A stretch of 64,000 nt of DNA from a bacterium (GTDB lineage Bacteria; UBP7; UBA6624), in assembly GCA_002716355.1 (NCBI GenBank), contig PBAU01000010.1, positions 1 to 64,000 of the forward strand, in the 5' to 3' direction. Below the pieces are notes generated by a model. That model had not been told where the DNA came from and ran no database searches. It saw only the letters and a list, made by a program, of their open reading frames with translations. The position numbers and the translations under genes were made by a program. Below, piece after piece: positions 46,432 through 58,824 of this stretch (positions within the stretch are counted from its first letter, which is position 1; each line of letters begins with the position of its first letter).

Positions 46432-46809
46432 TTACTCTTCGTAATTTTCCAAAACTGAATGGATTTGATTCAATTCATCATTTGTTGAATTCATAAGACT
46501 CGCCAGATTATAACCATTTCTATTGTCCATGTATGCTAATAAATCTAATAATTTAAACCTTCTTTGATTTCCAGCAGTTCTATGACATCTAAGAATGCCT
46601 GCCTCGGTATCCCGTCTTATAGTAGTGTGTGAAACACCTAGAAGCAATGCAGCTTGTTGCATTGTTAATTCAGGATTCAACAAGTCAATTATCAATTTTT
46701 TACGAGCGTTTAAACGAGACAGAGCTTTAGCGTATTCCGCTTTTCTGCGGTCATTTTTGGCTAAACTCTGCTTAAGGTTTTCTGATGTAGAAGTATTATC
46801 AAGTTTCAT
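46432..46809 (-). CDS. Excisionase/MerR-type helix-turn-helix protein
   Basis: 125 aa. A basic helical N-terminal region (1-45) is followed by an HTH_17-type domain (about 48-95): '[24 protein letters not shown]' then '[12 protein letters not shown]'. A helical acidic tail ends it. The fold is used by phage excisionases and by small regulators; no integrase or phage gene is nearby, so a chromosomal regulator is more likely. Sits between acyP (4-nt overlap) and fusA. An 8-bp inverted repeat upstream of acyP could be its operator (inference). Confidence 0.75.
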
Positions 46810-47087
46810 TCAGAAGAGGTTGGTAGTATTTCAAAACCCAATCCTAAATCTTCTTTAACTTCCCTCGAATCGACTTCATCGACTCTACTTGAAGGAGGTC
46901 CTTTTTTGAGCAAACTTTTCATTTTTGCAAGATCTTTATCTGATCCTTCCAAAACAACTTCAACATCACCGTTAAGCATATTTCGAGTAGTACCTGAAAG
47001 TCCTAAATTTATGGCCTGTGTTCTAGTAAACCACCTGAAACCAACACCTTGGACCCTACCTTTAACTTCAAATTTTCTTGTCGGCAT
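46806..47087 (-). CDS. acyP: Acylphosphatase
   Basis: 93 aa. Seen: 'VKGRVQGVGFRWFTR' with the phosphate-binding loop and catalytic Arg, and 'GTTRNMLNGDVEVVLEG' with the catalytic Asn. Hydrolyses acyl phosphates such as carbamoyl phosphate or acetyl phosphate. Length is normal. First gene of the run acyP-HTH-fusA-EamA-GT2-STAND. Confidence 0.95.
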   Translation of the reverse strand: MPTRKFEVKGRVQGVGFRWFTRTQAINLGLSGTTRNMLNGDVEVVLEGSDKDLAKMKSLLKKGPPSSRVDEVDSREVKEDLGLGFEILPTSSE

Positions 47088-50981: not shown

Positions 50982-52878
50982 CTTTTTGAGCTAAATATTT
51001 CGCAATCAAAGCTAAGCAAATAAATCCAATCCAAGGTCCAACTGAACCTAATGCTATTACTGGAATACTAATTTTAGAAACTATAACGCCCGCAAGAATG
51101 ATTCCCATCAAAGCCTCTCCTGTTATCAAGCCACTACAGACAAGAATACCTTGCCTGCTTGTATCTTTCTTTTTTCCATAATGCAAATAATGTCTTAAGT
51201 ACCCACCAAGAAATATAGGGACCGCAAGCTCTATTGGAAGATAGATACCCACAGCAACTGCTAAAACAGGAGCCCTGAACGAGCTTCCCGCTCTTTCTAA
51301 TCTTTTATCCCAAAGAATTATCAAAACCCCTATAGCAATACCTATAAAAACCAAATTCCAAGGAAGTGTTGAATTCTCCCCAAGTATCCCATCAGCAACA
51401 GAAGCCATCAAGCCTGCTTGCGGTGCTGCTAGAAAATTCCCTTGAGCCTCTACCGGCAAGTGCAGATCGGAACCTATACCATAAGCATTATGAAGCAAAG
51501 ATAAAACAGGCGTTATGACTAAGGCAGCAACAACAACACCTAAAATCTCCATAACCTCTTGTTTCCATGGTGTTGCATTGATGATGTTTCCACATTTTAA
51601 ATCTTGAAGGATATCTGAACCTATGGAGGCAGCACAACAAACTATACTGCCAACAAATATTGCAGCAGCTGGACCAATCGAACCTTTACCCATGAAAAGC
51701 AAAACAAATGATGTAAATAAAAGTGTTGCGATTGTTATTCCGCTTATTGGGTTATTGCTTGAGCCTACAAGACCACCCATATAACCTGCAACTGAAGAAA
51801 AAAGAAAGCCTGCTAAAACCATAATTATCCCCATTGCTAGGGCTATATTGAGATCGCTTATAACATGGTTGTAATAAAGAACTATTGGAATCAATAATAA
51901 AAAAATTCCTCCAAGGACAAAAGGCATAGGGATATTCCTTTCTTCTCTTGGTAAATCTTTTTGCCCAATACCCATTTTTCTATAAGCTTCCATTCCGCTT
52001 TTGATTCCATCTAAAACGGGCTTCCAAACCTTCAAAAGTGCATAAATTCCACCAACAGCCATTGCTCCAACGCCTAAATATCTGATCTTCTTGCTCCATA
52101 TCAAATAAGCACCATCAACAGGTGAATTTTGAACAATTGAGTTTATTGAATCTCCACCTATAAGTTCATTTCCATTTAAGTAAACATATAAAGGCAAACC
52201 TATTATCCATGCTATACAGCCACCTAAAAAAACTAATATTCCTATATTTTTACCAACTATATAACCAACACCTAAAAGAGCTGGTGATAAATTTGTTCCG
52301 ATGTAGCCAAGCCATTTTCCACCTAGAAACTTAGCTCCTTCAAGAGCTTCACCCCAGGCCTTAAATCCTGACTGGAAAAACTTAAACAAACCACCAATCA
52401 ATGCACTTTGGCCAATTAAAGATGCACCGGCACCACCCTTTTCACCTTCCTTTAAAACTTCAGCGGTTGCAAGGCCTTCAGGAAAGGTTAATTCCTTGCT
52501 ATCTACAATGAAAGCCCTTCTCAGAGGAATACAAAAAAGTATACCCAAAATACCTCCTAAACCTGCAATCAAAGAAACTTCCCAAAAAGAAAAATCAGTC
52601 CAATGTCCAAGCAGTATCAAAGCAGGAATTGTAAAAATAACACCAGCAGCCAAAGACTCTCCTGCACTTGCTGCTGTTTGAACCATATTGTTTTCAAAAA
52701 TATTATTTCCTTTTTTCCTACCAGCAAAACATGCCAATACACCCATTGAAATAACAGCAGCGGGGATGCTTGCACTCACAGTCATACCTGCCTTTAAACC
52801 CAGATAAGCATTTGCACCGGCAAGAGCTGCAGTTATAAATATTGATAAAACTATAGACCTTAAAGTAATCTCCTTCAT
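50974..52878 (-). CDS. OPT family oligopeptide transporter
   Basis: 634 aa with about 15 hydrophobic segments. Seen: 'AGANAYLGLKAGMTVSASIPAAVISM' at the first helices and 'SIGSDILQDLKCGNIINATPWKQEVMEILG' in the middle, signatures of prokaryotic OPT proteins that import oligopeptides or metal chelates. Last gene of the msrP-to-OPT run, overlapping the PyrK-like fragment gene by 4 nt and converging with gltX. Confidence 0.94.
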   Translation of the reverse strand: MKEITLRSIVLSIFITAALAGANAYLGLKAGMTVSASIPAAVISMGVLACFAGRKKGNNIFENNMVQTAASAGESLAAGVIFTIPALILLGHWTDFSFWEVSLIAGLGGILGILFCIPLRRAFIVDSKELTFPEGLATAEVLKEGEKGGAGASLIGQSALIGGLFKFFQSGFKAWGEALEGAKFLGGKWLGYIGTNLSPALLGVGYIVGKNIGILVFLGGCIAWIIGLPLYVYLNGNELIGGDSINSIVQNSPVDGAYLIWSKKIRYLGVGAMAVGGIYALLKVWKPVLDGIKSGMEAYRKMGIGQKDLPREERNIPMPFVLGGIFLLLIPIVLYYNHVISDLNIALAMGIIMVLAGFLFSSVAGYMGGLVGSSNNPISGITIATLLFTSFVLLFMGKGSIGPAAAIFVGSIVCCAASIGSDILQDLKCGNIINATPWKQEVMEILGVVVAALVITPVLSLLHNAYGIGSDLHLPVEAQGNFLAAPQAGLMASVADGILGENSTLPWNLVFIGIAIGVLIILWDKRLERAGSSFRAPVLAVAVGIYLPIELAVPIFLGGYLRHYLHYGKKKDTSRQGILVCSGLITGEALMGIILAGVIVSKISIPVIALGSVGPWIGFICLALIAKYLAQKVR

Positions 52879-53168
52879 GAAAATCCTCCATTTTTAAATT
52901 CTGAAATAGACCCATAAACATTATCTCCGATATTGACATTGCACAAATCTGAACTCCCTTCAATTGAACCAACCCGCCATAAGATAGCTCCATCTGGCTT
53001 GATATCCATTATAGGAATTGGATTATGAAAAAACTTTTCACCAATCTTGAAAAAAACAAGCTTACCTGTGCTGAAAGATCTTAACCAGGGGGCATGAGTA
53101 TAAAGAACAACGTCTTTATTTGAGACAGGTTCGATACCAACAATCTCAATAAATCCATTTTTCTTCAT
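52875..53168 (-). CDS. Stand-alone PyrK-like FAD-domain protein, truncated
   Basis: 97 aa, resembling only the N-terminal FAD-binding half of the dihydroorotate dehydrogenase electron-transfer subunit PyrK: a beta strand, then 'TGKLVFFKIG', 'NPIPIMDI', 'AILWRVGS', 'NIGDNVYGSI', ending 'NGGFS' where PyrK has 'GPLGNGF'. The flavin-binding Arg and Ser of the usual 'RRPxSI' are lost ('HNPIPI'), and the NAD domain and [2Fe-2S] cysteines are missing. It directly follows carB (ATGA overlap), where pyrK stands in carA-carB-pyrK-pyrD operons. Could be a remnant or a repurposed CarB or PyrD partner. Confidence 0.6.
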   Translation of the reverse strand: MKKNGFIEIVGIEPVSNKDVVLYTHAPWLRSFSTGKLVFFKIGEKFFHNPIPIMDIKPDGAILWRVGSIEGSSDLCNVNIGDNVYGSISEFKNGGFS

Positions 53169-56100: not shown

Positions 56101-56317
56101 TTTTAATTATTTCAACTAAAGTTTCCAGAACCAAGGGTTCAAGGTATGTTCTGTCAGCAAAATCAACATCAGTCATTATTGTGGCGGGATTATTGTTAAC
56201 CAAAACAATTTCATGCCCTTCTTCTTTTAACGCTCTACAAGCTTGAGAACCAGAGTAATCAAATTCAGCGGCTTGACCAATAACTATTGGGCCACTGCCT
56301 ATAACAAGTATTTTCAT
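53165..56317 (-). CDS. carB: Carbamoyl-phosphate synthase large subunit
   Basis: 1050 aa with the duplicated ATP-grasp layout making carbamoyl phosphate from bicarbonate, ammonia and two ATP. Seen: 'IGSGPIVIGQAAEFDYSG' and 'NNPATIMTD' in half one, 'IEVNPRVSRSSALASKATG', the second half 'GGGPIRIGQGIEFD', 'VLEVNPRASRTVPFLAKATG', and a C-terminal MGS-type allosteric domain ('ITVDDRDKPFAAKLAKRIKKLG'). About 15-20 residues shorter than typical. carA is not adjacent: the upstream gene is LptC-like. Confidence 0.96.
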   Translation of the reverse strand: MKILVIGSGPIVIGQAAEFDYSGSQACRALKEEGHEIVLVNNNPATIMTDVDFADRTYLEPLVLETLVEIIKKEKPEGLLATLGGQTGLNLAVQLGKSGALEKHNVKLLGTSLESIQMAEDRGSFKDLMNQIGEPVLESRVVRNLDEAEDFLKKMGLPLVIRPAYTLGGSGGGFANDVSSFIEIVKNGLQMSPVTEVLLEKSIYGWKELEYEVMRDGAGNCITVCNMENLDPMGVHTGDSIVVAPSQTLTDKEYHKLRTSSLKIIDSLDIKGGCNVQFALNEDGEYIVIEVNPRVSRSSALASKATGYPIARVAALIASGKTLPEIRNKVTGTTTACFEPALDYIVTKIPRWPFDKFPKANRELGVQMKATGEVMSIGRNFKESFIKALGSLEMPGKKLFPFADKEDDFIKSLLKTPTDQRIYAIFESIFRGWETEEICSISGWNSFFIEELKELLRLVFLGELGTEEQLQEFFDRDDIDFYTHYSGEETSKKSRDKRSFRMVDTCASEFESFTRYYYGTDGEDSESEKTKSPIVVVGGGPIRIGQGIEFDCCCVHALQAIRESGHEAVMINNNPETVSTDFDFSDQLFFEPLNHEDVLKVVDDIDAKGVIVQFGGQTSINMANQLEKNGVNLLGTPLSGIDIAEDRKKIDRLLSELDVNMPKGYTVDGPEDLEELIEVLSFPVLVRPSFVLGGRAMTIAYTKEDVIVAVKDAYEQVDGKNPILIDEYILGKELEIDLVCDGTDIYVPGVMEHIERAGVHSGDSMAVFPSFSLDEKTINEIVEIGRKIAFGLECIGMLNIQYIMSEGSIYVLEVNPRASRTVPFLAKATGISMAKVATKVMLGQSIKDQGVPIGLGPKPKCNTLKAPVFSFNKLLGVEVGLGPEMKSTGEIMSFGKSLTEVFSKTWTSLGFNNSKIRKGAVLITVDDRDKPFAAKLAKRIKKLGYEIYATSGTYDFFEAKSIEAFPIRKIHEGTPNLLNLLSDERISFVVNSVSGNSEAETDGMRIRAASVRNEVPLFTNLESAEAFVETLEFWSNEDKVFPVRALQDSI

Positions 56318-56766
56318 TCTTTTAAAACCACCTTTCCTTTTTTTTCAATTGATCCCGAAAGAGTGTCAATCTCTATGCTCAATCCAATTCCTGAAATAAA
56401 AACATGACCATAATCGATTTCAAAAGAAGAATCAGCATAAGCTTTACCCTCAAGGATATCCAAACTTAATGAATCTGCTGAAAGGTTGAAGCCTGAAGGC
56501 GAGCTCATAAAAACATCACTCAGGAAAAACTCATTACTTTCTCGATCCCAGAATCCATCCGATGAATCAAGCTTCAAAACCCCTGCCCCTTTAGAAAAAA
56601 CCATATCTATATTTTCCAAAAATAAAGCTTCATCTAAATTTTCCTGAAAACCTTCACCAGAAAGTTGCACTAAAGGATTGCCACTCTGGTCAGATATAGT
56701 TAAAGATATAGGACTACTAAAAAATGCACCTAAAAAAAGAAGGGGGAGGAGCCAATTTACACTCAT
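56314..56766 (-). CDS. LptC-like exported protein
   Basis: About 150 aa with an N-terminal hydrophobic anchor (3-20) and a beta-rich soluble domain with repeated short strands ('VLKLDSSDGFWDRESNEFFLSDV', 'LSLDILEGKAYADSSFEI'), the pattern of LptC/LptA-type proteins. Its place right after kdsC is where lptC sits in many diderms. Sequence similarity alone is weak. It would link the inner-membrane Lpt exporter to LptA. The start is the ATG at 56766 in an ATGA overlap with kdsC; a TTG at 56772 is an alternative. Confidence 0.6.
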   Translation of the reverse strand: MSVNWLLPLLFLGAFFSSPISLTISDQSGNPLVQLSGEGFQENLDEALFLENIDMVFSKGAGVLKLDSSDGFWDRESNEFFLSDVFMSSPSGFNLSADSLSLDILEGKAYADSSFEIDYGHVFISGIGLSIEIDTLSGSIEKKGKVVLKE

Positions 56767-57299
56767 AAGCAATTTAAAAAAAGGTCAACAAGCTCTCTGA
56801 AAGCGCCCTCTCCCCCTCTCTTAGACAAAATAAAATCAGATTCTTTTTTCAGCAAAGCTTGAGAATCTGCAACACAGCAACCTAAGCCAGAACTCTGAAT
56901 ACATTCAAGGTCATTCAAATCATCACCAAGATAAACTACTTGAGAAAAATTTATTTTTTTCTCTTTTAAATAACTTGAAAGAATTTTTAATTTATCATCT
57001 ACCCCAAGGCCGACTATATCCCAACCCAAATCCTTCACCCTTGCAACACTTGAACCATCTTTTCTGCCAGATAAGACAGCAACAGCCACACCTTTTTCAA
57101 GAAGCAGCTTCCCGCCATAACCATCATGTACATTAAATTGCTTCATGATCTCCAAGCCAGTGTAGTAAAGATTTCCATTTGTAAGCGTTCCGTCAATATC
57201 AGTAACGAAAAGTTTAATGTTGGATGCATCAATACTTAAAAATGGATTACTTTTTTTATTTTTTTCCGACAGGTTCCCTACATCGTCTTTGTATTGCAC
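56763..57299 (-). CDS. kdsC: 3-deoxy-D-manno-octulosonate-8-phosphate phosphatase (KdsC-type HAD)
   Basis: 178-aa C0-type HAD phosphatase. Seen: 'FVTDIDGTLTNGNLYY' (nucleophile Asp and DxD), 'VAVLSGRKDGSS', 'VDDKLKILSSYL' and 'VYLGDDLNDLE'. Dephosphorylates Kdo-8-phosphate, showing Kdo-containing LPS synthesis. The start is GTG at 57299 overlapping the msrQ stop; internal starts a few codons down are possible since KdsC usually begins nearer the DxD motif. Confidence 0.9.
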   Translation of the reverse strand: MQYKDDVGNLSEKNKKSNPFLSIDASNIKLFVTDIDGTLTNGNLYYTGLEIMKQFNVHDGYGGKLLLEKGVAVAVLSGRKDGSSVARVKDLGWDIVGLGVDDKLKILSSYLKEKKINFSQVVYLGDDLNDLECIQSSGLGCCVADSQALLKKESDFILSKRGGEGAFRELVDLFLNCL

Positions 57300-57889
57300 T
57301 AATCATCAATTCTAGAACGAAAACTTAATTTAAAGGCACGAAAAAACAATAAAAATAAACCGAGAAAAAGATAAGCCAAAGCTAATCCTGGGCCTTCTTT
57401 GGATACTGATTTGAAATAATAATGAAATGCAGAAAATGCAAAAGCTGGATAAATTAATTGGTGCAAATTCTTCCAATTCTTGACACCTATCTTTTTTATT
57501 AAATTGTTATTAGATGTAACTGCAAGAGGAATTAAACAAAAAAATGCAAAAAAACCATAAGCTATAAAAGGTCTTGTTTGGAAGTCCTCATAAACACCAA
57601 AGGATTCAATTTCAAAAAATAAATATACTAAAAAATGAAGCAAGGCGTAAAAGAAAGACGTTAAACCGAATATCCTTCTTGCAAACATAAAAAAAGGTTG
57701 TTTGAAGAATTTAACCAATGGAGTAATCATTAAAGTCAAAAGCAAGAACCTAATTGAGCTTTGACCTGAGTAATGCAATATGCTCTCAACTGGATTGATA
57801 AGATAAAAACTATTTAAAAATGGATAAACAAAACTAAAAATAATGATGGTCCAGCAAAAAAAAAGACATTTTTTTTTATTTAAAACCAT
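57299..57889 (-). CDS. msrQ: MsrQ haem-binding membrane subunit
   Basis: 196 aa with about six membrane helices of the ferric-reductase-like domain. Seen: 'SSIRFLLLTLMITPLVKF', 'RIFGLTSFFYALLHFLVYLFFE' with a haem-ligand-type His, and 'NWKNLHQLIYPAFAFSAFHYYF' with two more. MsrQ passes quinol electrons to periplasmic MsrP, which repairs methionine sulfoxide. Overlaps msrP by 10 nt. Confidence 0.92.
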   Translation of the reverse strand: MVLNKKKCLFFCWTIIIFSFVYPFLNSFYLINPVESILHYSGQSSIRFLLLTLMITPLVKFFKQPFFMFARRIFGLTSFFYALLHFLVYLFFEIESFGVYEDFQTRPFIAYGFFAFFCLIPLAVTSNNNLIKKIGVKNWKNLHQLIYPAFAFSAFHYYFKSVSKEGPGLALAYLFLGLFLLFFRAFKLSFRSRIDD

Positions 57890-58764
57890 TTTTTTAAATC
57901 CATATTTTTATAAAGATCATTAACCTCTTCTCCATAACCGTTATACATTAAAGTTTTTCTCCGTAGCCATTCCCCAATTCTTCTTTCAGTTTTTTGACTC
58001 CATCTAGGATGATCAACATCTGGATTCACATTACTGTAAAAGCCATACTCTTTTGGATTTGATTTAACCCAAGAAGTAAGAGGCATATCTCTTTCAAACG
58101 ATATCTTAACAATTGACTTGATACTCTTGAAACCATACTTCCAAGGAGTCACCAACCTCAAAGGAGCTCCATTCTGATTCAATAAAGATTCACCATAAAT
58201 TCCGGTTGATAAAAAAGACAGAGGATGCATTGCTTCATCCATCCTGAGACCCTCAACATAAGGCCAATCAAGAATGTTACTTTTTTGACCAATCATCTCT
58301 TCTGGCCTGTAAAGAGTTTCAAACTTGACATAACGTGCATTATCATCTGGCTCAAAATGCAATAAAAAATCTCTTAATGAAAAACCTGTCCAAGGGATTA
58401 CCATTGACCAACCCTCAACACACCTGAATCTATAAACTCTCTCTTCAATTTTATTCAATTTAAAAATATCATCCATGTCAAGAGTCTTTGGAGACCTGCA
58501 TAAACCACCCACCTCTACACTCCATGGATGTGTGGTTAGTCTAAATGCATTTTTTTTAGGATCACTTTTCGAAGTGCCAAATTCATAAAAGTTGTTGTAA
58601 GAAGTGATTGCTTCATAAGACGTGGGCTTGTCATTCTGTGAAGCAAAAGATGAAAATTGTGCAAATTTCGAAAGACTAAGGCTTGAAATCCCCAAAAAAG
58701 AATTCTTAATAAAAGATCTTCTTTTAAGGTATATTGATTTTGGTGTAATTTTCAAATCAGACAT
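57880..58764 (-). CDS. msrP: MsrP (YedY) periplasmic methionine sulfoxide reductase, molybdopterin subunit
   Basis: About 294 aa. The Tat signal 'LKRRSFIKNSFLG' is visible near the N-terminus. The molybdenum-binding Cys is in 'YRFRCVEGWSM', followed by 'PWTGF', 'YVEGLRMDEAMHPLSFLSTGIYG' and 'PLRLVTPWKYGFKS'. With MsrQ it reduces oxidised methionine in envelope proteins. The ATG at 58764 is preferred over the TTG at 58770. Heads a 7-gene run to 50974. Confidence 0.94.
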   Translation of the reverse strand: MSDLKITPKSIYLKRRSFIKNSFLGISSLSLSKFAQFSSFASQNDKPTSYEAITSYNNFYEFGTSKSDPKKNAFRLTTHPWSVEVGGLCRSPKTLDMDDIFKLNKIEERVYRFRCVEGWSMVIPWTGFSLRDFLLHFEPDDNARYVKFETLYRPEEMIGQKSNILDWPYVEGLRMDEAMHPLSFLSTGIYGESLLNQNGAPLRLVTPWKYGFKSIKSIVKISFERDMPLTSWVKSNPKEYGFYSNVNPDVDHPRWSQKTERRIGEWLRRKTLMYNGYGEEVNDLYKNMDLKKWF

Positions 58765-58824
58765 TCTCAATTCGATTATAGAAGACGCATAAAAAAATTA
58801 TTTAGAATTCTAGACAGCAAACAA

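Follow-up and report, generated by a model that had tools for sequence, protein, structure and literature searches.

The locus described here raises the question of why an intact ORF of only 97 codons, resembling one half of PyrK, should be fitted between carB and the gene that follows it in a bacterium of a little-known marine genus. The window is a stretch of 64,000 nucleotides of contig PBAU01000010.1 (assembly GCA_002716355.1). A reading of that stretch made from the letters alone (the sequence-only reading) had interpreted the ORF as a degenerate FAD-binding domain of PyrK kept for another role, such as binding CarB or PyrD. Our comparison within the phylum covers three genomes: the window genome (G000), a second genome of the same genus (UBP7 bacterium UBA7824, G001), and one from a sister genus of the same family (G002). 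The assemblies of G000 and G001, which both carry the remnant, are incomplete MAGs (87% and 62%).

The ORF and its neighbors

The frame begins with ATG and is intact over all 97 codons (Table 1). ATGA overlaps join it to both neighbors: the carB stop codon overlaps its start, and its own stop codon overlaps the ATG of the OPT gene at 52878. Intactness and ATGA coupling to carB, as first read, were both confirmed from the sequence. The CarB and OPT proteins of this genome are normal. Because the Shine-Dalgarno-like site for the OPT gene lies inside the 3' end of the ORF, its last few residues are doubly constrained. Farther upstream, an msrP/msrQ-like pair (57299-58770; named by eye) precedes kdsC-like and LptC-like genes, in an order identical to that of G001.

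Table 1. Positions of the features discussed; coordinates are those of the window unless a contig is named
Feature	Position	Strand	Basis or remark
PyrK-derived protein, 97 aa, FAD-binding (FNR-type) domain only	52875..53168	-	sequence and homology
carB, carbamoyl-phosphate synthase large chain, 1050 aa	53165..56317	-	stop overlaps start of remnant (ATGA)
OPT-family oligopeptide transporter, 634 aa	50974..52878	-	ATG overlaps stop of remnant (ATGA)
GGAGGA, Shine-Dalgarno-like site for the OPT gene, inside last codons of remnant	52884..52889	-	read from sequence
LptC-like ORF, weak (below Pfam cut-off), upstream of carB	56314..56772	-	order kept in G001
Divergent PyrD, 245 aa	G000:C8:17194-17928 (L001:1483-2220)	-	beside pyrF; relatives L041, L062-L114

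Relationship of the ORF to PyrK

Searched singly, the 97-aa protein gave no sequence match in Pfam, NCBIfam, PHROGs or the PDB, so that a relative, G002, was needed to reveal the link to PyrK. A search of 98 genomes with the remnant returned a 76% match in G001 and a match of 1.9e-11 in a 294-codon frame of G002; weak matches in other genomes were due to chance or to full-length relatives. The G002 gene order is carB, a gene for a full-length PyrK of 245 aa (contig C38), and an OPT gene, which places this PyrK in a position syntenic with that of the remnant. BLASTP aligned the remnant with the G002 PyrK over residues 5-86, corresponding to residues 4-87 of the G002 protein (E=2e-15, 30% identity), and the reverse search with the G002 PyrK found the remnant ORF as its sole match in G000 (E=4.5e-10). 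The G002 protein matched the PyrK model NF000796 at 5e-36, yet under the curated cut-off of that model; it scored above the cut-off for the Fe-S domain PF10418 and below that for PF00175, and it matched the PyrK of Lactococcus lactis in the PDB at 3e-21. The remnant itself aligns with the FAD domains of PyrK and NfnA. Judged by these alignments, the ORF is a leftover of pyrK, as the sequence-only reading had proposed from its resemblance to the PyrK FAD domain. That reading had also assumed a carA-carB-pyrK-pyrD operon; pyrK does follow carB, but the G002 pyrD lies elsewhere, beside pyrF. The likely ancestral state is carB-pyrK-OPT together with a class-1B PyrD beside pyrF, as in G002. The viral contigs searched contained no relative of the remnant, and a literature search found no paper on a PyrK remnant.

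Both remnants have N49-P50-I51-P52 where the FAD-contact motif R-P-x-S/T is expected; the aligned segments are HNPIPI in the remnant, ARPMSI in G002 and RRPISI in L. lactis PyrK. The alignment thus bears out the replacement of the flavin-binding Arg and Ser, by Asn and Pro, respectively. The G-T pyrophosphate motif has become G71-S72, and the GPLG loop is absent. The end of the remnant coincides with that of the barrel: past this point G002 has GWGPLGNSF and the NAD domain, whereas the remnant has GSISEFKNGGFS and then a stop codon. The ORF lacks the NAD-binding domain, stopping at 97 aa where the OPT gene begins, and it lacks the C-terminal [2Fe-2S] cysteines (PF10418), both losses having been recognized in the first reading. 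AlphaFold, given the two remnant sequences as input, predicted four strands in order at a confidence (pLDDT 43) too low to speak for or against an FNR-like beta barrel.

To the profile built from the remnant and full-length FAD domains, 83 of 145 genomes had matches, all in frames of at least 240 codons, with the exception of the two remnants and of a partial, weak match in G089. That match (G089:C65:6600-6725, in an 87-codon frame, E 7.5e-6) covers only profile positions 63-104, the second half of the FAD domain; it is possible that the frame is an independent fragment or a contig artefact. In the incomplete assemblies of G000 and G001, neither a further PyrK nor a PyrK-like NAD domain was found, and no Fe-S domain scored above the cut-off. 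Outside the remnant, PF00175 matched in G000 only an FNR-like 376-aa protein (contig C8), which has a counterpart in G002, and a C12 sequence below the cut-off, and PF10418 scored above its cut-off in G002 and in neither G000 nor G001. A split PyrK, with its NAD and Fe-S half relocated, was considered as well, and these searches of G000 and G001 gave no candidate for one. A further relative of PyrK in G002, of the SudB/NfnA type, is flanked by glutamate-synthase-like genes (L035, G002:C65); no gene of this type was detected in G000 or G001. The first reading had left room for a full pyrK or another kind of pyrD elsewhere in the genome. No full-length pyrK was found in the incomplete assemblies, and the sole PyrD seen there was a divergent, phage-type form.

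The PyrD of the genus

In G000 and G001, whose assemblies are incomplete, the only PyrD found is a 245-aa form encoded beside pyrF and 87% identical between the two species. Against every PyrD model its score is far under the curated cut-off. The pyrF-adjacent PyrD of G002 matches NF005574 at 3e-77; it is an ordinary class-1 protein of the canonical class-1B kind and is 23% identical to the 245-aa form. The order lipoprotein, pyrD, pyrF, lptF is common to G001 and G002 (names by eye except pyrD), and the same pyrD locus holds a different PyrD in the two genomes. Contamination was rejected as the origin of the odd PyrD, because the gene adjoins pyrF in both species and the gene order of G001 is that of G002.

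Relatives of the 245-aa PyrD were found on 53 viral contigs, several of them T4-like, with 39-47% identity, and a 595-kb uncultured phage encodes one as well. A broad, though not exhaustive, sample of 384 other genomes gave none at an E of 1e-20. Some of the viral genes lie near pyrF and some near gp46/gp47-like genes of T4-like phages (identified by eye); within the available contig stretch, none of the 53 loci had a PyrK-like ORF. One published account counts viral pyrD and pyrF among auxiliary metabolic genes (PMC13288924). A midpoint-rooted tree placed both bacterial short PyrDs and all 42 viral PyrDs on one long branch and the G002 PyrD among ordinary class-1 proteins, with a rooting that leaves the direction of transfer unsettled. 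From its relatives and its locus, the 245-aa PyrD looks like the product of displacement of the canonical pyrD by a phage-type gene.

A viral homolog of this PyrD was predicted to form a DHOD barrel (pLDDT 88), with a Z of 24.6 to the PyrD of L. lactis DHODB. The catalytic Cys motif NxSCPN is present as NLSCPN in both G000 and G001. The active-site lysine corresponding to Lys48 in the PyrDB of L. lactis is missing; both proteins have VTG where canonical proteins have VK or TK. Most phage-type PyrDs have T, S or V at this first active-site lysine (residues 26-31 of the G000 PyrD), and a few keep the K (SVKG in L109 and L079); the family as a whole is also some 60 residues short of canonical PyrD. 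From the motifs, the predicted fold of the viral homolog and the location beside pyrF, we infer that the 245-aa PyrD is a dihydroorotate dehydrogenase. All three genomes have pyrE, so the pyrimidine pathway is probably in use.

Selection on the remnant

The sequence-only reading made conservation next to carB in relatives a point to be checked. G001 (contig DLTY01000022.1) has the same 97-aa ORF in the same position, with both ATGA overlaps, and the two remnants are 74% identical without indels. The agreement in frame, place and length indicates that the remnant is more than chance, and the shared 97-aa form in two species implies that the truncation is old, most simply older than the species split. 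Assembly error as the source of the short ORF is unlikely, because two separate assemblies agree.

Comparison of the two remnants by the NG86 method gave a dN of 0.141 and a dS of 0.641, and thus a dN/dS of about 0.22 (codon bootstrap range 0.105-0.413). Values for neighboring genes ranged from 0.04 to 0.29: 0.04-0.05 for carB and the OPT gene, 0.14-0.17 for the LptC-like and KdsC-like genes. The LptC-like gene, at 0.17, served as a yardstick of selection. Constraint on the remnant is therefore weaker than on the genes that flank it. In neutral simulations at the fourfold-site divergence of the neighborhood, mean protein identity was 48%, the observed 74% was reached in 0 of 20000 runs, and the frame stayed free of stops in 6.5%. 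When the observed total divergence was placed at random, equally few protein changes resulted in 1.5% of runs. These comparisons indicate that the remnant is under purifying selection and not in neutral decay, in agreement with the earlier suggestion that it has been kept. Constraint was strongest in residues 46-91, which span the former FAD motif (40 of 46 identical, dN 0.06, dS 0.41), and less in residues 1-45 (28 of 45 identical).

An ORF of 91 aa that overlaps the remnant in another frame (52718-52993) was rejected as a candidate gene, because the substitutions in it lie at the first two positions of its own codons and its dN/dS exceeds 2. Elsewhere in the window, an acylphosphatase-like ORF (46806-47087) differs from its G001 counterpart by only 0.10 at fourfold sites, compared with about 0.29 for its neighbors, possibly as a result of recombination or conversion.

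Three other explanations of the ORF have to be weighed against these values. It could be a slowly decaying relic, left without function when PyrD was replaced and not yet destroyed. Its faster evolution relative to carB and the OPT gene, its degenerate FAD motif and the disappearance of its partner PyrD are what such a relic would show. We consider this explanation unlikely, because the truncation predates a species split at a dS of about 0.6 with no indel or stop since, because even the upper bootstrap bound of dN/dS (0.41) is well under 1, and because no neutral run kept as much identity. The ORF could instead be a spacer for translational coupling, in which the ATGA chain from carB through the ORF to the OPT gene would allow reinitiation, the 3' end would supply the Shine-Dalgarno sequence, and the protein would matter little. 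This proposal fits the ATGA overlaps that flank the ORF in each species and the GGAGG inside the last codons. It seems improbable, since the protein is constrained far from the overlaps, in residues 46-91, while synonymous sites there are free to change, and since the G002 OPT gene follows pyrK without any overlap. We think it very doubtful that the barrel binds flavin or another nucleotide in an altered way, as a redox or carrier protein working with the phage-type PyrD: conservation is highest around the former FAD site and GT has changed only to GS, but both key residues of RPxS have been replaced, the GPLG loop is missing, and onward electron transfer would have neither an NAD domain nor an Fe-S cluster to go through.

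Discussion

The explanation that we prefer is that PyrK apparently shrank to a remnant because the main subunit gave way to a phage-type PyrD, a form found without PyrK. The events may have begun with the exchange of the canonical class-1B PyrD for the phage-type PyrD at the pyrF locus. If the new PyrD reoxidizes its own FMN without PyrK, the binding of NAD, FAD and Fe-S by PyrK would have become dispensable, and electron transfer would have been lost first. PyrK would then have lost the FAD-contact motif and everything past the barrel before the two species split. The leftover barrel, presumably made by translational coupling to carB, may now serve as a small non-redox binding or stabilizing protein whose most likely place is the pyrimidine pathway, with CarB or the new PyrD as its partner. 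CarB is suggested by the coupling and the new PyrD by the history; since the genes for the remnant and the new PyrD are not adjacent, a functional link between these two is guesswork. PyrDB has been reported to be destabilized without PyrK (PMC8097209), which provides a precedent for a stabilizing role. Binding to the old, class-1B PyrD, which the first reading would have allowed, was set aside because the canonical PyrD was not found in this lineage and the phage-type PyrD is in its place. As a whole, the explanation that the PyrD swap freed PyrK and that the barrel was kept as a non-redox binding or stabilizing protein has, in our judgment, an even chance of being correct. Its narrower form, in which an apo (FAD-less) barrel was exapted as a non-redox accessory of the pyrimidine pathway after a viral-type PyrD displaced its partner, we put forward only tentatively.

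The sister genus and this genus together offer a view, before and after, of a redox subunit whose partner enzyme gave way to what appears to be a phage-type gene. A functional remnant would be a flavin domain that persists without flavin. The locus also points to a divergent family of putative dihydroorotate dehydrogenases that is common on contigs of marine viruses.

Among known systems, the class-1 dihydroorotate dehydrogenases share with the short PyrD the DHOD fold (as predicted for the viral homolog), NLSCPN, GGLSG, the second lysine and the NT motif. The short PyrD is about 60 residues shorter, does not conserve the first active-site lysine, and falls with the viral PyrDs in a separate, long-branched clade with no PyrK nearby. 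The NfnA/SudB-type subunits (PRK06222; 5JCA chain S) belong to the same domain family as the remnant and are matched by the profile that includes it; unlike the remnant, they are full length. The remnant differs from the PyrK of L. lactis (1EP3 chain B) and of G002 in being without the FAD motif, the NAD domain and the [2Fe-2S] cysteines, and in having no class-1B PyrD partner in its incomplete genome assembly. It is homologous to both proteins over the FAD-binding barrel (residues 5-86), and it has the same slot after carB as the G002 PyrK.
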